This document shows positions 10,629 through 53,656 of a stretch of DNA of 64,000 nucleotides, piece after piece. The notes beneath the pieces were generated by a model that saw only the letters and a list, made by a program, of their open reading frames with translations, ran no database searches and was not told where the DNA came from. A program made the position numbers and the translations under genes. Numbering within the stretch: position 1 is the first letter of the stretch; each line of letters opens with the position of its first letter. The stretch is from a virus: positions 372,001-436,000 of the IMG/VR virus record IMGVR_UViG_3300028920_000022; one strand, 5' to 3'.

Positions 10629-12098
10629 ATGCCCGCAAAAGTTCAAAAAACTCCTTTGCTTAAGGAAGGCGAATATACCATAGCCGATGTTTCAGATTGG
10701 AACTTTTTTGATCTTTCAGGCGAAAACGCCCACACTTTTGGCACGTCCAACAAACAATATCACATAGAAATGCACATAGGTAAAAATGGTAAGTGTCAGA
10801 TCTTTACCATGTTTGGTCCAACCGGGGGTACCCAAACTAAAAATTGGCGCTACTTTGACTCTGAAGTTGCCGCCCGTAAAGAATTGGCGTCAATGAAGAA
10901 AAAAAGAGTCAAAAAGAATTATAAAGAAATTAAAGTTGCCATTCGTGCTTACGGTACCGAAGAGGCTAAAAAGATCACTCAAGCTGTTGAGTTCAACAAC
11001 TCAGATATAAAACCCTCCAGCAATCTCCATAAAGAAACCCAACGATTAATGCGGGTTCTCTTTGGTGCAACCGAACACTTCGTTGTTACCACTTTGCGCT
11101 GCCCTCTGGGTCAATTAACCAATGAACAAGTAGATGAGGGTTATAAACGCCTAAATGAAGCAAAAAAATTAATTTCTAATGGTTCACCAAATGCTAAACG
11201 GATTGAAACACTTACCAACGAATTTTATGCTATTATCCCCCACAATTTAGGAGCCGGTGCGAGAGGTAAAATGATGAACCTCTTGCTGGATACTCCACAA
11301 AAGATTGCTCAAAAAGAATATGATTTAGAAACATTATTGGACGCCAAATCGGTTGGAGCTGCCCTGGAAAAGGGCTCAACCGTTGATGATCAATATAATG
11401 AATTGAATACCGATTTTGATTTTATTGATCATAACGATCCTTTATTTCAATGGGTAAATAGGATTGTTTTGGATACTCGGGCACACAACCATAATACTTT
11501 GGGTAAGATTACAGTATTGAATGCTTGGAAATATAATCGTCATGGCGAGAGAAACGTTTTTGAAAAGAGGATGAAAGAGATTGCCAAGGAGTGTAAAAAG
11601 CCGTTTACGCCTAAAGTTTTGAGGAATGCTGTTGAAAATCGGTTAGATATTCCAGATGGACAGGGAGGATTATATAAAAAGGCTAATGTGTTGCCATTAT
11701 TTCATGGAACCCGGACTCAGAACATTGCTGGAATTACGAAGAAGGGATTGTTGATAAGACCTTCGGGTGTGATTTTAGAAGGTTCATGCTACGGTAGTGG
11801 TGTTTATTATGCAAACAACAGTAGCAAAACGATCAACTATAGTAGTGTTCGGGGGGCTTATTATACCCACGGCAAAGACGATCGTGGTTATATATTCATA
11901 GTAGATTGCGTTCTAGGCGACACTTATGTTCCAACTACTGCAGCAAACTACACCAAGGGTAATATTTCCCCCAACCATTCAGTGTGGGCAAAGGGAGGAT
12001 ACTCTGGCGTAATTAATGATGAGTATGTGTTGTTGGACATAAATCAGCATAATATTAGATACTTAGTGGAGTTTACTTGCGGGAAAAATGGAATATAG
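10629..12098 (+). CDS. Poly(ADP-ribose) polymerase 1 (WGR + regulatory + catalytic)
   Basis: The 489-residue product has the architecture of the conserved half of PARP1/2. A WGR domain covers about 20-105 (YHIEMHIGKNGKCQIFTMFG), a helical PARP regulatory domain about 130-265, and the ART catalytic domain about 350-485. The H-Y-E triad is present: His359 in PLFHGTR, Tyr393 in SGVYYAN and Glu465 in INDEYVLLD. It should use NAD+ to attach ADP-ribose, with the WGR sensing DNA ends. No BRCT or zinc fingers. The Glu implies elongation is chemically possible. Target unknown. Confidence 0.9.
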   Translation: MPAKVQKTPLLKEGEYTIADVSDWNFFDLSGENAHTFGTSNKQYHIEMHIGKNGKCQIFTMFGPTGGTQTKNWRYFDSEVAARKELASMKKKRVKKNYKEIKVAIRAYGTEEAKKITQAVEFNNSDIKPSSNLHKETQRLMRVLFGATEHFVVTTLRCPLGQLTNEQVDEGYKRLNEAKKLISNGSPNAKRIETLTNEFYAIIPHNLGAGARGKMMNLLLDTPQKIAQKEYDLETLLDAKSVGAALEKGSTVDDQYNELNTDFDFIDHNDPLFQWVNRIVLDTRAHNHNTLGKITVLNAWKYNRHGERNVFEKRMKEIAKECKKPFTPKVLRNAVENRLDIPDGQGGLYKKANVLPLFHGTRTQNIAGITKKGLLIRPSGVILEGSCYGSGVYYANNSSKTINYSSVRGAYYTHGKDDRGYIFIVDCVLGDTYVPTTAANYTKGNISPNHSVWAKGGYSGVINDEYVLLDINQHNIRYLVEFTCGKNGI

Positions 12099-20447: not shown

Positions 20448-22064
20448 ATGACTACATCATCTGATTTTGTGAAAAGTTTAATTGGGGACCAGGAAAAGGC
20501 AGAGGTTTTAGAGCCTTACCTGAAAAAGAACGAAGATTGGCGGTTCAGTGTTGCTCGTGTAATGCTAACCGGAATTCTCAAGAACCAGTTTTACCGATCC
20601 GCAGAAGATGCAGCCAAAGAAGCGTTGCCATTAATGCTTATGGCTGCAAAGAAGGATCCCGAATTCCTATTAAAGGCTGCCGCTTTTGCACGTGAAGCTA
20701 ATATGAAGGGAATGGTCAAACTGGGTCTGGCAGCTTTAGCAACTCAGGCTCCAGCCCAATTTTTAAATGATAATCGGGCTACTATTGTTGGTTTGTTAGG
20801 AACTTTTCACCCAGGACAATTACTTCAATTTGTTGAACTAATGAAGTCAAAAGTTTTGGGCAGGGGTTTTGGTGCCCGCTCTCAGAAATGGGTACAGTCT
20901 GTAATGCAGTCTTGGCGCCCAGAAAAGGTAGAAGAATATACCCTAAAATATCCAACTGCATACAAGGTTCTTCTGCGTCTTGTTCACCCATCATATAGTG
21001 ATGTGCGAAGTGGGTTGGTTCGATATTTATTGGACCCCTCAGAAAAATACCCAGAATATGGCACACCAGCGGGCAAGATTCAAAAAGCGGTTGAGCGCAT
21101 CAAAACCTCTAACGATGATGCGTATATTGCCAAAACCATGTTGGAATATGAAATTCCTTGGGATGTTGTCAAAGGATTCCATTCTATTAATGGAGATGTT
21201 GGTTTAGCAATGTTAACCCAGATGGGGCTTTCTGCTTTACTGTTAAACACACGCAGTTTAGAGAAAAATGGTGTTTTAAACACCCCGGATGGAGTCCAAG
21301 CGTTTGCTCTAAAGTTAAATGAGGTTAAAAACGGCAGATCTATTCCCATTGATTTTGCCAAACCATATATTTATTCTGAGAACCATCAGGTCAAGGAGTT
21401 ATTAGTAAAGGCGATTGTTGACACCTTGGGCAAAGAAATGCCTCATATTGAGGGAAGAAGCATTGGTGTCAGCGTTGATATTTCTGGTTCGATGAGCAAC
21501 GAACCATTACAAACTGCTGGGCTGTTAGCAATTCCATTTTTGAAAGCACGCAATTTGTGGTTTACCACGTTTGATACGCAGTGCTATGAAGAAGGAACCC
21601 AGGTACGCGGTCGAAGTTGGTATGGCGCTTTATCTGAGGGAAAATATATTTGTCCACCACTGAAGGGTTTGGAGCCGGAACAGCAGGTAAAGAATCTGTT
21701 AAGTTTGCGGGTAAATGGTGGAACTAATGTTTCTTCGTCTTTGGACAGAGCGTTGCAAAACAATATTAATTTGGATTTGCATGTTCTAATTACCGATGAG
21801 CAGCAAAATGCCGGAACTCCGTTGATGAGTGTTTGGCGTGAATATAAGCGTCGAATTAATCCACGAGCCGAGTTGTGGATAATCAATGCTACAAACTATG
21901 TGTGGCATTCTGCGGATTTCGATGATCCGAGCGTTACCGTTTATCAGACCATGACGCCTGCAATTTTTAAGAATCTACGATTTTTTGGTCAGGATTTAGT
22001 TTCTGCTATTAAATCGTATGATTTGAATAAGGTTCGTAGGTTGGGTAAGTTTAAGCCGGATTGA
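20448..22064 (+). CDS. Ro60-type TROVE domain protein with vWA domain
   Basis: Strong ribosome-binding site GGAGG. The 538-residue product has an N-terminal TROVE HEAT-repeat ring (about 1-330) with ANMKGMVKLGLAALATQAP and the DDAYIAKTMLEYEIPWDVVKG region, followed by a von Willebrand A domain with the MIDAS motif DISGSMS (Asp344) and later metal residues. Ro60 proteins bind misfolded RNAs and Y RNAs and work with exoribonucleases such as PNPase. A non-coding RNA locus with Y-RNA features lies 1.5 kb downstream under a near-identical promoter. Confidence 0.92.
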   Translation: MTTSSDFVKSLIGDQEKAEVLEPYLKKNEDWRFSVARVMLTGILKNQFYRSAEDAAKEALPLMLMAAKKDPEFLLKAAAFAREANMKGMVKLGLAALATQAPAQFLNDNRATIVGLLGTFHPGQLLQFVELMKSKVLGRGFGARSQKWVQSVMQSWRPEKVEEYTLKYPTAYKVLLRLVHPSYSDVRSGLVRYLLDPSEKYPEYGTPAGKIQKAVERIKTSNDDAYIAKTMLEYEIPWDVVKGFHSINGDVGLAMLTQMGLSALLLNTRSLEKNGVLNTPDGVQAFALKLNEVKNGRSIPIDFAKPYIYSENHQVKELLVKAIVDTLGKEMPHIEGRSIGVSVDISGSMSNEPLQTAGLLAIPFLKARNLWFTTFDTQCYEEGTQVRGRSWYGALSEGKYICPPLKGLEPEQQVKNLLSLRVNGGTNVSSSLDRALQNNINLDLHVLITDEQQNAGTPLMSVWREYKRRINPRAELWIINATNYVWHSADFDDPSVTVYQTMTPAIFKNLRFFGQDLVSAIKSYDLNKVRRLGKFKPD

Positions 22065-23144: not shown

Positions 23145-23544
23145 TAGTAGTACACCACCATATAGTAATGGAATTACTTTGAGATTTCTTGCTGATCAAT
23201 TTGCGCGCGGTTTTCAAGAATTACGTGATGCTGTAAATAATATACAAACCCAGGTTCAAGCTGGTGCTATAGATATGGCAGGAGTAAAAGCTGAGATATC
23301 TAACATGCAAGACAAAGTTGATGAATTACAGGTTTTAGTGCGTGGTTCTAATGATAGCTCGCTTACTTCAAAACTTCATACAATTGAAAAAGAATTGAAA
23401 CTTATTAATGAATGGGTAATCAATCAGAAAGCAATAAAATCTGAAAGTAGTAAAAATAAATTAGCTATCAAGGTTGCGGTAATAACTGGTAGTTTTGCTT
23501 TGTTGGCACAAATAGTAATGCAAATTATTCATTGGTTTAATTGA
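23137..23544 (+). CDS. Coiled-coil protein with C-terminal membrane anchor (XhlA-like layout)
   Basis: ATG at 23137 overlaps the previous stop; an upstream in-frame ATG at 23089 is unlikely. 135 residues: a disordered start, a long coiled coil (about 30-95) and one C-terminal transmembrane helix (KVAVITGSFALLAQIVMQII). This resembles small phage holin-accessory proteins of the XhlA type in shape only. Confidence 0.55.
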   Translation: MSNSSTPPYSNGITLRFLADQFARGFQELRDAVNNIQTQVQAGAIDMAGVKAEISNMQDKVDELQVLVRGSNDSSLTSKLHTIEKELKLINEWVINQKAIKSESSKNKLAIKVAVITGSFALLAQIVMQIIHWFN

Positions 23545-23639: not shown

Positions 23640-23696
23640 GTAACGCGAGGTTGATCTTTCATCTGCATTTTGTGGGTCTTCCGATTATTTCGTTAC
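23640..23696 (+). ncRNA. Candidate Y RNA-type hairpin A
   Basis: The outer stem is GTAACG (23640-23645) with CGTTAC (23691-23696). Conserved elements are CGCGAGG after the 5' stem, GATCTTTCATC in the apical part and GGGTC on the descending strand. A T-rich stretch (ATTTTCTTTTTG) follows, as expected for a short transcript end. CGA opposite TTTCG recalls the conserved Ro60-binding helix of bacterial Y RNAs. The inner helix has two mismatches relative to copies B and C. Confidence 0.6.
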
Positions 23697-23707
23697 ATTT
23701 TCTTTTT

Positions 23708-23782
23708 GTGCATGGTGAGACTTGAACTTACAAATCCTCGGAAGATAGCGGTTTTTTAGACCGCCGTGTTTTCGCCATGTAC
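23708..23782 (-). tRNA. tRNA-Leu-like element with deleted D-loop (probably pseudo)
   Basis: On the minus strand: acceptor GTACATG/CATGCAC (one mismatch), an 11-base D region lacking GG, anticodon arm GCGGT-CTAAAAA-ACCGC, a class II-like 16-base variable arm and T arm GTAAG-TTCAAGT-CTCAC. The class II arm points to a Leu origin but the loop reads AAA as anticodon. No CCA is encoded. It is antisense to the neighbouring RNAs; it could be a decayed tRNA or a tRNA-mimic module. Confidence 0.45.
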
Positions 23783-23796
23783 ACATTTCCAAACAC

Positions 23797-23970
23797 ATGA
23801 TTTCTCAACACATGATTTCTCAACTAAAACACTGGGGTTATTTTTCACTAGGAACAACGTTATTTTTGATACCATTTATTTTAATGCTAAGACCACCGTG
23901 GTATCTTAATGCGATGATGATGGTTGGTTTGGTAATGGTAATCCAAAGTACTAAGGTTGGAGAGAAGTAA
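23797..23970 (+). CDS. Small membrane protein (57 residues) inside the RNA locus
   Basis: ATG at 23797, TAA at 23968-23970. The first codons overlap two tandem 15-bp repeats AACACATGATTTCTC (23792-23806 and 23807-23821), so residues MISQH and MISQL repeat. The product has two hydrophobic segments (TTLFLIPFILML and AMMMVGLVMVI). No Shine-Dalgarno. Could be a real micro-membrane protein or a chance frame. Confidence 0.45.
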   Translation: MISQHMISQLKHWGYFSLGTTLFLIPFILMLRPPWYLNAMMMVGLVMVIQSTKVGEK

Positions 23971-23999
23971 TTTCTACGCATATTTAGGATTCAGATTTG

Positions 24000-24060
24000 G
24001 GACGCGAGATTAGATCTTTCATCATTCATAGATATTTCGGGTCTAGTCGTTTTTTCGTCC
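24000..24060 (+). ncRNA. Candidate Y RNA-type hairpin B
   Basis: Outer stem GGACG (24000-24004) with CGTCC (24056-24060): compensatory changes relative to GTAACG/CGTTAC of A and C. The inner stem TAGATC pairs with GGTCTA. It shares CGCGA, GATCTTTCATC and TTTTTTCGT with C. A TAGGAT (23985-23990) at -10 distance may be its promoter element; no good -35 is seen. Confidence 0.6.
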
Positions 24061-24065
24061 ATTTT

Positions 24066-24149
24066 GCGTTGTTCGTCTAAGTTAAGACATCCTTGTTAGA
24101 GCTTCTAAGCTATTACACAGGAAGATAGAGTATCGAATCTCTGCGACGC
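24066..24149 (+). ncRNA. tRNA-like fold between hairpins B and C
   Basis: Acceptor-like 7-bp stem GCGTTGT/GCGACGC, a 4-bp D-like arm GTCT-AAGTTA-AGAC, a long central arm closed by ATC-CTTGT with ACAGG-AA-GAT, and a T-like arm AGAG-TATCGAAT-CTCT. The anticodon arm is not tRNA-like and no CCA follows. This fits a tRNA-mimicking Y RNA module better than a working tRNA; a degenerate tRNA is the alternative. Confidence 0.5.
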
Positions 24150-24154
24150 GCTAG

Positions 24155-24218
24155 GTAACGCGAAGTTAGATCTTTCATCATTTTCCAAGGTAAACGGGTC
24201 TAACTGTTTTTTCGTTAC
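24155..24218 (+). ncRNA. Candidate Y RNA-type hairpin C
   Basis: Outer stem GTAACG (24155-24160) with CGTTAC (24213-24218); inner stem TTAGATC with GGGTCTAA. CGAAG on the 5' strand faces TTTTTTCG. The apical loop contains the shared TTTCATCATT. It starts five bases after the tRNA-like fold, so the two may be one RNA. Confidence 0.6.
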
Positions 24219-24288
24219 ACTAATTTGACCCCTTTAAGACCATAAAAGGTTTGTTTTCGAAATACATTTAGACACAACATATCTTTTT

Positions 24289-24321
24289 AAAAGGCATGCC
24301 CTTTAAGGGTGTGCTTTTTTT
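24289..24321 (+). terminator. Rho-independent terminator of the RNA locus
   Basis: AAAAGGCATGCCC pairs with GGGTGTGCTTTTTT (with G-U pairs) around TTTAA, followed by a U tract. It closes the transcript that starts near 23640 and separates it from tRNA-Met. Confidence 0.75.
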
Positions 24322-24325
24322 GTAT

Positions 24326-24411
24326 TGCGGGAATGTAGCAAAGGCGGCTAGCCAGTCTCATAAGCTGGCGTCCATTGATCGCGAAGGGTTCGATTCCCTC
24401 TCCCGCAACCA
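24326..24411 (+). tRNA. tRNA-Met (CAT), CCA encoded, long variable region
   Basis: Acceptor TGCGGGA/TCCCGCA with discriminator A and encoded CCA; D stem TAGC/GCTA; anticodon arm CCAGT-CTCATAA-GCTGG (anticodon CAT); T loop TTCGATT. The variable region is about 15 bases, long for a Met isoacceptor, and there is one extra base between acceptor and D stem. A lysidine-type Ile tRNA cannot be excluded. Confidence 0.85.
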
Positions 24412-24468: not shown

Positions 24469-25875
24469 ATGGGAAAATTGAAGGTGTGGAAAGTTGGCGC
24501 AGCTGGAGAACCCAGTTTTCCTGCCAATTTTGAGGTGGCTAAAAAAGCCGTTCTCCAAGTTACAGATATTAAAACAAATCGTAATAAGTATTATGCCATA
24601 GAACTACACTCTGCTGGCAATAAATATAGAGTGTTTACTCATTATGGTCGAACAGATGATCTGGACACGAATCCTAATGCTGGGGTGCGCGAGGTTCGTT
24701 ACGGCAACTTGTCTGAATGTGAAGCAACCTATCATCAGATATATAGTCAAAAAACTAGCGCAAGAAAAGGATATAAGGAACTTAGCTTAGCATCTTCGCG
24801 TATTGGTTCGTCTCAATCGGTTGGTAAATCTAGCGGACATGTTGATGACAAAACGCTTGAAAAACTAAACAACGGTAACAAGAAAGTGATAAAAAACAAA
24901 GTTTCTACACTTTCTCCCGTTGTACAAGATTTTGTTTCTTATATTTATGCTGAAGCCACTAATGCCCTAACTAGCACAATTAATGCCAGCATTACCGCTA
25001 ATGGTATCGAAACGCCTCTTGGTGTTTTGACACTGGGTCAGATTGATAAGGGGCAAAAGATTTTGGATGAGCTTTATGATTTATTCAATTCAAAAAAGAG
25101 CCAATCAATACGTGACCATATGGTAGAACTGAGTGGTGAGTTTTATACAGTAATTCCTCACAGAATAGGCAGAACTAGGGCTGCTGTAGAAGCTGCTGTT
25201 ATTGATAGTTTAGTAGATTTTAATGCTAAGCAAGACACATTACAACTTATGCGAGACATGTTAAGTGTTTCGGGTAAAGACTCCCAGGTACTTATTAACC
25301 CTGAAATTGATAAGAAATATAATGCTTTGGGTTGCGAAATTAAAACTGTAGATAATAAAAAGTATCAAGAATTGAAGGATTATGTAGAGAAATCACAAAT
25401 AAAAACCAGAAATATTAAAGTAAAGAATATATATTCATTATGCAGACCAGAAGAACAAAAGGTTTTTGCTGATAATATTTCAAATAAACGATTACTTTTT
25501 CACGGTTCTAGGGCAAAAAACTGGGTAGGTATTCTTTCCCGTGGTTTGTTGCTTCCTAAGATTGTGGTTAGCTTGGGTGTAAACCGAACTGACGCAGGTT
25601 GGCTTGGAAATGGTATTTATTTCGGAGATGCTGTTTGCACTACATTATACTACACGTCTCCTGGAAGGCAGAGAAACACCCGGATGATGGCGATAGCGAA
25701 TGTAGCATTAGGAAAGATGAAGGATTTTAATAGAATTACGTATGGATTAAAAGGACCACCCGCTGGATATCATAGTTGTCATGGTGTACGTGGAACCTCA
25801 TTTGCAGATGATGAATATGTAATTTATGACCAGAAACAGCAGAAACTTGAGTATTTAGTGGAGTATGTGTCATGA
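24469..25875 (+). CDS. Poly(ADP-ribose) polymerase 2 (WGR + regulatory + catalytic)
   Basis: The 468-residue product has a WGR domain at about 25-105 (YYAIELHSAGNKYRVFTHYG), a linker, a PARP regulatory helical domain about 148-270 (GVLTLGQIDKGQKILDEL, EFYTVIPHRIG) and a canonical catalytic domain with His345 (LLFHGSR), Tyr384 (GNGIYFGD) and Glu449 (DDEYVIYD). It is closer to eukaryotic PARP1/2 than the copy at 10629 and should be a DNA-damage-type ADP-ribosyltransferase. It has its own promoter. Confidence 0.93.
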   Translation: MGKLKVWKVGAAGEPSFPANFEVAKKAVLQVTDIKTNRNKYYAIELHSAGNKYRVFTHYGRTDDLDTNPNAGVREVRYGNLSECEATYHQIYSQKTSARKGYKELSLASSRIGSSQSVGKSSGHVDDKTLEKLNNGNKKVIKNKVSTLSPVVQDFVSYIYAEATNALTSTINASITANGIETPLGVLTLGQIDKGQKILDELYDLFNSKKSQSIRDHMVELSGEFYTVIPHRIGRTRAAVEAAVIDSLVDFNAKQDTLQLMRDMLSVSGKDSQVLINPEIDKKYNALGCEIKTVDNKKYQELKDYVEKSQIKTRNIKVKNIYSLCRPEEQKVFADNISNKRLLFHGSRAKNWVGILSRGLLLPKIVVSLGVNRTDAGWLGNGIYFGDAVCTTLYYTSPGRQRNTRMMAIANVALGKMKDFNRITYGLKGPPAGYHSCHGVRGTSFADDEYVIYDQKQQKLEYLVEYVS

Positions 25876-28863: not shown

Positions 28864-30006
28864 ATGATTAAATCTATGTTTGATGATGATCTTTACAAGT
28901 TCACAATGCAACAGATTATTTTGCATTTCTATGGAGACAAGAAAGCCGAATATAGATTTAAAAATCGTGGGAACACCAAGTTTAATGACAAGTTTGCTGA
29001 TAGACTTCAGGATGAGATAGAGAACCTTTCTCTGTTGGTTCCCGACAAATATGAACTAGAAGAGTTTGCGAAGATTCCGTTTATTAGAGGAGATTATGTA
29101 GAGTACTTATCAAGGTATCGTTATGATCCACGGCAGGTACAGTTTTCTTTGCGAGATGGAGATTTAGATCTTCGTATAAAGGGTCCATGGCATTCCGCTA
29201 TATTGTGGGAAGTCAAACTGATGGCGCTAATTAGTGAGATTTATTTTGCCCAACATAAAGCTACCTGGACAATGGATGGTCAAAAAGAAAAGCTTGATCG
29301 AAAAGCTCTTCTTTTAGAGGCGGTAGATGCTAAGTATGCCGATTTTGGTACTCGTCGCAGGCGTAGTTTTGAGGTTCAAGATTTGGTGGTAAGAAACCTT
29401 GTCAACAAACATGGGTTCCTGGGTACATCAAATGTACATTTAGCCATTAAACATGGTGTTTCCGCCGTGGGCACTATGGCTCACGAATGGGTTCAGGGTG
29501 TATCGGTAGCTGAGGATTTATTGCATGCTAATGGTATTATGATGGACAGATGGAATTCTTTTTATCAGGGACAGTTGGGTGTTGCTTTAACTGATACATT
29601 TACCACTCCGCACTTTTTATACAACAGTTTTGATGCCAAGCGCGCTGCTGCATTTTCTGGAGTTAGACAAGATTCGGGCGATCCGTTTTGGTTTGCGAAT
29701 CAGGTGATAAATCGATACCTACAACTAGGAATTAACCCCAAAACCAAAACCATTATTTTTAGCGATAGTTTAGATGCCAAAACTGCCGCCAAACTACAGA
29801 TCCATTGTGATGGAAAGATTAACTGTGCTTTTGGCATTGGCACCAATCTAACTAATGATTTTGACAATTTGAAACCAATTAATATGGTGATCAAGTTGTG
29901 GTCAATTGACGGAATTCCGGTAGTAAAGTTGTCAGATAATGCTGGCAAAAACAATGGCGATCTATGGATGCTTGGGGTTGCGAAGAGGGTGTTTGGGGTA
30001 TCATGA
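28864..30006 (+). CDS. pncB: Nicotinate phosphoribosyltransferase
   Basis: The 380-residue product aligns by eye with E. coli PncB over its whole length: DDDLYKFTMQQ, GPWHSAILWEVKLMALISE, FGTRRRRSFEVQ (161-172), GTSNVHLA, GTMAHEW with His207 at the autophosphorylated histidine, ALTDTFTT, RQDSGDP and FGIGTNLTND. It makes nicotinate mononucleotide from nicotinate and PRPP with ATP, the first step of Preiss-Handler NAD synthesis. No adenylyltransferase or NAD synthetase is in the window, so host NadD/NadE would complete the route. It may supply NAD to the PARPs. Confidence 0.92.
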   Translation: MIKSMFDDDLYKFTMQQIILHFYGDKKAEYRFKNRGNTKFNDKFADRLQDEIENLSLLVPDKYELEEFAKIPFIRGDYVEYLSRYRYDPRQVQFSLRDGDLDLRIKGPWHSAILWEVKLMALISEIYFAQHKATWTMDGQKEKLDRKALLLEAVDAKYADFGTRRRRSFEVQDLVVRNLVNKHGFLGTSNVHLAIKHGVSAVGTMAHEWVQGVSVAEDLLHANGIMMDRWNSFYQGQLGVALTDTFTTPHFLYNSFDAKRAAAFSGVRQDSGDPFWFANQVINRYLQLGINPKTKTIIFSDSLDAKTAAKLQIHCDGKINCAFGIGTNLTNDFDNLKPINMVIKLWSIDGIPVVKLSDNAGKNNGDLWMLGVAKRVFGVS

Positions 30007-31033: not shown

Positions 31034-32050
31034 ATGTCAAAGCGAAATCTGGTTAAGTCTCGTGTTCGTGGAGCTATTTTGGGAACCGCAATTGGAGACG
31101 CCCTAGGTGCTCCATTTGAAATGATGGAAAAAGAACAAATACATAACCTATTGCCGGTTCCGTGGACATGGGGACAACAGCAGAAGGGTATAGTGTTTTC
31201 CGAAAACTTTGCTCATCCAAATCTAGGAATCGGTCAATGGACCGATGATACTCAATTAATGCGCACTATTTTGTGGTCGATTATTGACGATCATGCCATT
31301 GATCCATATGGTATTGCTAAATATACCAGTGAGGTTTTTGAGAAAGAACAGCTTCGAGGATGGAGCAAATCCGTAATTTCTGCAGCAAAACGACTTTCTC
31401 GTGGGGTTCCGTGGTACGATTCTGCCAACGAATCCATCGGTATTGGCAACGGTATCGCCATGAAAGCTGCTCCTTTGGGTATTTACCTGGCTAAATACCT
31501 GAAAAACGATTACAACTATTCTACCCATGAGTTTGGCGCCAACCTTAGACATGCCATTGTGTCTATTGTTGGTGTAGGACAAATTACCCACCATGAGCTG
31601 GGAATCATGGGTGGCGTAATGCAAAGTGTCTTAGTTGGTCTTTCGTTCAATAATGTCAAGAACAAGAAGTTGATTCTTAAGGTTCTGGGCAATATTGAAA
31701 AGGAATTTTCTGGTGCCACACGGTTTACAGATAAGCTAAGAATTGCGCTAAAATACAATAGTATTGCGGATGTGGCTGATAATATTGGAACAGACAGCAA
31801 GGCAGACAAATCCTGGGTAACTGCAGCTGCTGTTTTTCTCAACACCAAGAGGCGCAGTGATGCTGCAAAACGCATGATGGAGCTAATCTGCCAGGGCGGC
31901 GATTGTGATACTACCGGAGCAATGTTCGGAGCCTTAGCTGGAGCCCGTTGGGGAATTTCTGCTTTTCCCACGAATCTCAGGAAAGAAGTCGAGGCAAGCA
32001 AGGAACTGTTAAAGTTAGCAGATGGTTTGTATGGAGTGGTTTCTACTTGA
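31034..32050 (+). CDS. ADP-ribosylglycohydrolase (DraG/ARH family)
   Basis: The 338-residue product has the ARH signatures: GAILGTAIGDALGAPFE near the start, GQWTDDTQLM (TDDTQ at 70-74, Mg ligands) and GGDCDTTGAMFGALAGARWG near residues 288-307. These coordinate the two Mg ions that hydrolyse ADP-ribosyl bonds on proteins or O-acetyl-ADP-ribose. With two PARPs and an ART-like protein in the same window it is the likely eraser. AGGA ribosome-binding site. Confidence 0.9.
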   Translation: MSKRNLVKSRVRGAILGTAIGDALGAPFEMMEKEQIHNLLPVPWTWGQQQKGIVFSENFAHPNLGIGQWTDDTQLMRTILWSIIDDHAIDPYGIAKYTSEVFEKEQLRGWSKSVISAAKRLSRGVPWYDSANESIGIGNGIAMKAAPLGIYLAKYLKNDYNYSTHEFGANLRHAIVSIVGVGQITHHELGIMGGVMQSVLVGLSFNNVKNKKLILKVLGNIEKEFSGATRFTDKLRIALKYNSIADVADNIGTDSKADKSWVTAAAVFLNTKRRSDAAKRMMELICQGGDCDTTGAMFGALAGARWGISAFPTNLRKEVEASKELLKLADGLYGVVST

Positions 32051-53074: not shown

Positions 53075-53149
53075 TCCCCCAGATAGGATTCGAACCTATA
53101 TTATTCACAGATTAGAAATCTGGTGCCATGTCCATTAGGCGACTGGGGG
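53075..53149 (-). tRNA. tRNA-Arg (TCT)
   Basis: Acceptor CCCCCAG/CTGGGGG, discriminator A, no encoded CCA. D stem GCC/GGC, anticodon loop TTTCTAA (TCT), T arm ATAGG-TTCGAAT-CCTAT. One C-U mismatch in the anticodon stem. AGA is a frequent codon in AT-rich phages, which explains its retention. Confidence 0.9.
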
Positions 53150-53656
53150 CTACGTTATATACTGTCGGAAACTCTTATAGTCCCCAAACTCTTGCCTAAT
53201 TTCTTTCAAAACTTTTTCTTGGTTGCCGCCAACATATTTCTTTAACAAATAGGCAACCAAATCATCCTGAGCAATTTCTTTTAGTTGACACAGTGGACAC
53301 CGTTCGCTGGGAAGATCATATCCACTACTTTCTGGCTCATACAGATCATTAATAGCATCTTCGTGATCTTTATATAGCTCTTCGATTACATCGTCTCCTG
53401 CTGATTCGAGCATTTTTAATTTGACGTCATCGTGGCGAAATATTTGATTTAGATCTGCACGTTTTCCCTCAAGTGACAGATCTCTTTCTATTTCCTCGCC
53501 GGGGAGCAAATATTCTGCCAAAAACTCATGTCCGCAAACACATTCGGCAGTAGGTTCCTCATATTCTCCATCCCAGCCCGCAAGTGTAATTCCGCTTACT
53601 TGGCATGTGAAGCTGCTAGAACTGCTGTTAGAAACGAATCCTGTTCTTATTTTCAC
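53150..53656 (-). CDS. SNSSSSSF-tag family protein 1
   Basis: 168 residues starting MKIRTGFVSNSSSSSF. A CVCGHEFL unit, an acidic helical middle and CPLCQLKEI follow. The closest relatives are the two genes at 54023 and 54544, which share the CGH/CNGH and CPxC spacing. Function unknown; the N-terminal tag recurs in prokaryotic proteins but I know no role for it. Confidence 0.65.
   Translation of the reverse strand: MKIRTGFVSNSSSSSFTCQVSGITLAGWDGEYEEPTAECVCGHEFLAEYLLPGEEIERDLSLEGKRADLNQIFRHDDVKLKMLESAGDDVIEELYKDHEDAINDLYEPESSGYDLPSERCPLCQLKEIAQDDLVAYLLKKYVGGNQEKVLKEIRQEFGDYKSFRQYIT

Follow-up and report, generated by a model that had tools for sequence, protein, structure and literature searches.

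A tRNA-like cloverleaf that lacks an anticodon arm (24066-24149, plus strand) lies between two hairpins about 2 kb downstream of a Ro60 gene in a giant phage, whose record comprises 458,729 bases (458.7 kb); the window, i.e., the whole stretch of DNA that was analysed, is a 64-kb part of this record. Tentatively, we read the region 23640-24319 as a variant cluster of small, Y-RNA-like RNAs that associate with Ro60, one part of which is an unpermuted tRNA mimic. Speaking for this are a stable cloverleaf on the plus strand, a family of hairpins with compensatory changes, a full-length Ro60 neighbour and a terminator that closes the cluster.

The elements are found in a 0.9-kb gap that is devoid of long reading frames and extends from the end of a reading frame at 23544 to the start of a PARP gene at 24469. 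On the plus strand, the gap contains, in this order, hairpin A (23640-23696), hairpin B (24000-24060), the cloverleaf, hairpin C (24155-24218), a strong intrinsic terminator 3′ of hairpin C (24289-24319) and a tRNA-Met gene with the anticodon CAU (24326-24411). The preliminary description had noted a tight fit of the cloverleaf between hairpins B and C, and indeed it is separated from each of them by a spacer of only 5 nt. The tRNA-Met is unusual in its own right, in that it has a long, class-II-like variable region and is matched better by the tRNA-Sec model (26.8 bits) than by that for tRNA. The best tRNA score in the record belongs to a gene elsewhere (L007:89-163, minus strand, genome positions approximately 451588-451662), which carries the anticodon UUA and which ARAGORN takes for an ochre (stop-codon) tRNA. 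The wider surroundings of the Ro60 gene (10629-12098, 24469-25875, 28864-30006 and 31034-32050 of the window) encode two PARP-type ADP-ribosyltransferases, a nicotinate phosphoribosyltransferase and an ADP-ribosylglycohydrolase.

For 24066-24149, the cloverleaf is both the minimum-energy and the centroid fold (-23.5 kcal/mol, z -2.05), and 7 of 200 shuffled sequences folded equally well, such that the energy by itself is unusual only to a modest degree (z about -2). The minus strand folds more poorly (-17.0, z -0.59). The cloverleaf is unchanged when folded within a 233-nt region and within 781 nt of flanking RNA, and all of its 26 base pairs are standard. The fold that had originally been proposed for this segment, a 7-bp acceptor stem, a short D-like arm and a T-like arm around a long non-tRNA helix, was thus recovered and proved stable in a long context. 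Specifically, the 5′ strand of the acceptor-like stem (24066-24072) pairs at all seven positions, two of them G-U, with the 3′ strand (24143-24149), which is followed by GCUAG and not by CCA. The D-like arm (24075-24088) has four of four pairs and the 6-nt loop AAGUUA. In the place of the anticodon arm, there is a long helix of 7 + 4 pairs with a bulged C (24090-24122), which ends in a terminal loop of 4 nt. Since it thus has no 7-nt anticodon loop, the cloverleaf cannot decode. The T-like arm (24127-24142) is present as described, but it deviates from the canonical 5 + 7 form, having a stem of 4 bp (four of four pairs) and the 8-nt loop UAUCGAAU.

The likeness to tRNA (RF00005) extends from the 7-bp acceptor, the 2-nt linker and the D and T arms to core residues: U8, A14, R15, A21, R26 and U54/U55-C56-G57-A58 are kept, whereas one A is inserted in the T loop and a single G is left in the D loop. 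When the anticodon arm was allowed to be skipped, the Rfam tRNA model matched exactly 24066-24150 with 20.9 bits, which is below its gathering threshold of 29, and the absence of an anticodon arm and loop as well as the 8-nt T loop likewise set the cloverleaf apart from a tRNA. With a strict tRNA descriptor (acceptor 7/7, 2-nt linker, D arm, 1 nt, an arm, and a T-arm with its motif), the cloverleaf was the sole match on both strands of the 64-kb window.

Hairpins A, B and C are near-copies of one another, with a common layout of an outer stem, CGA, a 10-bp inner stem, an apical loop and a 7-nt U-rich strand. Hairpin B has an outer stem of 5 bp, CGA in the 5′ loop, the inner stem of 10 bp and the 3′ loop GUUUUUU; hairpin C shares this architecture and has an outer stem of 6 bp, and hairpin A is a more divergent copy whose inner stem is partly broken. 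At four base pairs, the three copies display compensatory changes on both sides of the stem, a number that was reached by 4 of 500 shuffled controls and by no slid register. The fold z-scores are -2.7 for hairpin B and -2.9 for hairpin C, and weaker for hairpin A. A model built from the three hairpins matched A, B and C alone in the whole 458.7-kb record. Similarly, a CGA-stem descriptor with a score of at least 33 (shuffle expectation approximately 0.1 per strand) returned, across the 64 kb, hairpins B and C and one further site, and nothing else. This site (53134-53200, plus strand), a CGA-type two-stem hairpin with a score level with those of B and C, overlaps a tRNA-Arg in antisense and is probably due to chance. 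A long-range stem between B and C was considered and ruled out, since the compensatory changes maintain pairing within B and within C. It follows that a single RNA would consist of three stems in a row, and not of one long stem. Hairpins B and C are genuine, self-paired RNA hairpins.

The protein encoded at 20448-22064 (plus strand) was identified by its similarity to phrog_850 (4e-16) and to Deinococcus Rsr (PDB 2nvo, 1.1e-9). It falls below the curated cut-offs of the family models (NF041674, 40.1 versus 900 bits; vWA_Ro60, 18.7 versus 27.7 bits). Its AlphaFold2 model (pLDDT 83) matches 2nvo in Foldseek over the whole chain (5.8e-14), and other Ro60 structures as well, including that of the Thermus phage phiLo Ro60, again over the whole chain. 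The vWA metal-site residues D344, S346, S348, T426 and D450 are invariant in 47 sequences. The protein is a divergent yet complete Ro60 homolog, with a HEAT-ring TROVE domain and a vWA domain with its metal site. Furthermore, H180 and P181 are conserved across Ro60s, and H180 aligns with H187 of human Ro60; the human H187S mutant is without Y RNA binding (PMC11277228). Ro60/TROVE proteins of jumbo phages as such are already known (PMC7824862, PMC7765460).

With respect to a possible partnership between this protein and the RNAs nearby, Ro60 commonly has tRNA-like Y RNAs as partners. According to reviews, the bacterial Y RNA consists of two parts, a stem of its 5′ and 3′ ends to which Ro60 binds, and a tRNA-like domain on which DusA and TruB act and to which PNPase binds (PMC8394870). 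In our comparison set of 27 phage and 49 bacterial Ro60 loci, many indeed have a tRNA-like module adjoining Ro60, in which T-arm, loop-closed acceptor hairpin and D-arm follow one another as a circular permutation of a tRNA. R1, a model of this permuted module, reaches 45-66 bits at the Ro60 loci of phages, but tandem tRNA genes can also match it, and the firm examples are therefore those enclosed by a stem. We extracted 16 RNAs with one uniform Ro60-type stem, 15 of which have a T-loop inside. At a Prosthecobacter locus (L052:4308), a Y-RNA-like stem without a T-loop inside stands beside module-bearing ones. Over the whole 458.7-kb record of our phage, R1 reached at most 18.6 bits, and this on pieces of tRNAs, such that the canonical permuted module is absent here.

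The cloverleaf resembles the YrlA-type Y RNA in that a Ro60 gene is close by, that it has a T-arm and a D-arm resembling those of tRNA and no anticodon, and that a stem with an asymmetric internal loop is present (GYGA/CGA on the 5′ side, pyrimidine-rich on the 3′ side). However, the known modules are circular permutations with a capped acceptor hairpin and are enclosed by a single Ro60-binding stem, whereas the cloverleaf is unpermuted, is attached via its acceptor end and has a self-closed hairpin on either side. Because it does not have the order T-arm, capped acceptor hairpin, D-arm, we do not file it as a YrlA-type Y RNA. It may function like one all the same.

The flanking hairpins also have counterparts. 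In metazoan Y RNAs (RF00019), CGA faces a U-rich strand between two helices, and the hairpins have the same CGA/U-rich layout, though no Rfam match to RF00019. More closely, the covariance model R3, which represents known Ro60-binding stems, uncovered short hairpins adjoining Ro60 in a group of jumbo phages; these consist of an outer stem of 4 bp, UAGYGA, an inner stem of 10 bp and an 8-nt strand. Ten such sequences display six compensatory pairs. That such covarying hairpins adjoin Ro60 makes hairpin-only RNAs beside Ro60 a real class. Hairpins B and C resemble these RNAs (L016-L036) in their length of roughly 60-75 nt, the 10-bp inner stem, the pyrimidine-rich 3′ internal loop of 7-8 nt and the position next to Ro60, but the 5′ loop is UAGYGA in the jumbo phages and (ACG)CGA in A-C, and there is no match between them by sequence model. 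Within the jumbo-phage group, one such covarying hairpin RNA, some 65-75 nt in length, lies just upstream of Ro60 (L018:5510-5590, with homologs in L016-L033). The gap upstream of Ro60 in this group also contains a second conserved RNA of 221-285 nt (L018:5600-5856, L019:5540-5824, L031:5606-5831, L033:5000-5220, L002:4523-4807 and others). It is closed off by a stem of the Ro60 type, in which UAGCGA follows an outer helix of 7 bp and precedes an inner one of 9 bp, and it had no Rfam match in the loci scanned; it would be a large Y-RNA-like RNA with a module of an unrecognised kind.

Hairpins B and C thus have the architecture of Ro60-binding stems. R3 itself gave 3.9 bits for hairpin C and missed A and B, such that A-C were not retrieved by it, and a motif matrix from known Ro60 stems neither favoured A-C nor supported the CGA loop. 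Homology of A-C to known Ro60-binding stems is hence plausible, but not demonstrated. We have searched for relatives of the RNA in annotated phages, in IMG/VR by hairpin patterns, and via the neighbouring proteins Ro60, PARP, APS kinase, TerL and a phrog_7293 protein, and these searches yielded none. TerL relatives at 81% identity are found on short contigs alone, which do not carry the locus. Over 80 Ro60 loci, model R2 gave low-scoring, terminator-like matches alone; its single outside match (L099) was rejected as chance, as a reading frame of the opposite strand covers this site.

Could the cloverleaf have arisen by chance, in an AT-rich spacer that separates two functional hairpins? The z-score is just -2.05, and shuffles give about 0.1 matches to the strict descriptor per 64-kb strand, i.e., approximately 0.2 for both strands of the window. 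However, just some 0.0014 matches are expected in the 0.9-kb gap, the ends of the tRNA-model match coincide with those of the cloverleaf, the two hairpins are equally close to it, and the fold persists in long context, all of which makes such an accident very improbable. We consider it rather unlikely, too, that this is a phage tRNA gene of the ordinary kind in decay, its anticodon arm having been exchanged or having taken up an insertion. Other tRNA material at the locus would fit this, namely the odd tRNA-Met and a degenerate tRNA-Leu relic (23707-23784, minus strand, 20.9 bits) with a long variable region, as would the reduced GG of the D loop and the insertion in the T loop. The relic, however, shows what decay looks like at this locus, with a broken acceptor (5/7) and a lost D arm, whereas the acceptor, D and T stems of the cloverleaf are all intact, which argues against simple decay. 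That every stem is kept and the decoding arm alone exchanged favours a retained structure over a decay product. Moreover, the best similarity of the cloverleaf to any of the 15 phage tRNAs equals that of the best shuffle. An alignment revealing a decayed ordinary tRNA, which the preliminary description had named as the finding that would speak against it, therefore did not appear.

The nearest alternative to a role as a tRNA mimic is a processing signal. The cloverleaf would then be a tRNA-type punctuation, cut on its 5′ side by RNase P and on its 3′ side by RNase Z or another nuclease, such that hairpins B and C would be freed as short Ro60 RNAs and the cloverleaf would be a by-product. The acceptor and T stack of 11-12 bp, the retention of U8 and of the T-loop core, the 5-nt spacers on both sides and the one terminator downstream of all three elements are in keeping with this idea, as are the short hairpin-only RNAs beside Ro60 in other phages. 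On the other hand, no such spacer is present in the jumbo-phage Ro60 loci examined, and RNase P does not need a long structured central arm. We regard this alternative as unlikely, but the two roles are compatible and do not exclude each other.

A cluster of Ro60-associated RNAs is backed by the tRNA-like Y RNAs at other Ro60 loci and by the hairpins of the same layout next to jumbo-phage Ro60. Counted against it are the unpermuted module outside of a stem, the R3 misses, the motif matrix, the lack of a homolog and the modest z-score. The earlier proposal of a single tRNA-mimicking Y RNA of about 220 nt thus stands in part: Ro60 is close by, tRNA-like Y RNAs are usual partners of Ro60 proteins, and B and C are self-paired with the architecture of Ro60-binding stems, but the RNA is not of the known permuted type, R3 misses A-C, and relatives were not found. 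If our reading of the cluster is correct, hairpins A, B and C would be short Ro60-binding stems, perhaps co-transcribed with the cloverleaf as one RNA. The cloverleaf would be a non-decoding tRNA mimic, attached through its acceptor end. It may offer a partner that binds tRNAs, either tRNA-modifying enzymes or a nuclease like PNPase, an elbow and an acceptor/T stack of the tRNA type; hairpins B and C would meanwhile keep Ro60 nearby.

In this context, it is conceivable, though doubtful, that we are dealing with a second, independently arisen tRNA mimicry in the Ro60 RNP, in which an unpermuted cloverleaf with a replaced anticodon arm is suspended at its acceptor end, with a Ro60-binding hairpin on either side, in place of the permuted module. 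If true, tRNA mimicry by the partner RNAs of Ro60 would have arisen in two topologies, and it would be the tRNA elbow itself, and not one inherited module, that the Ro60 machine needs. The phage would then also provide a system in which the Ro60-binding and the tRNA-like parts are physically separate and can be removed singly.
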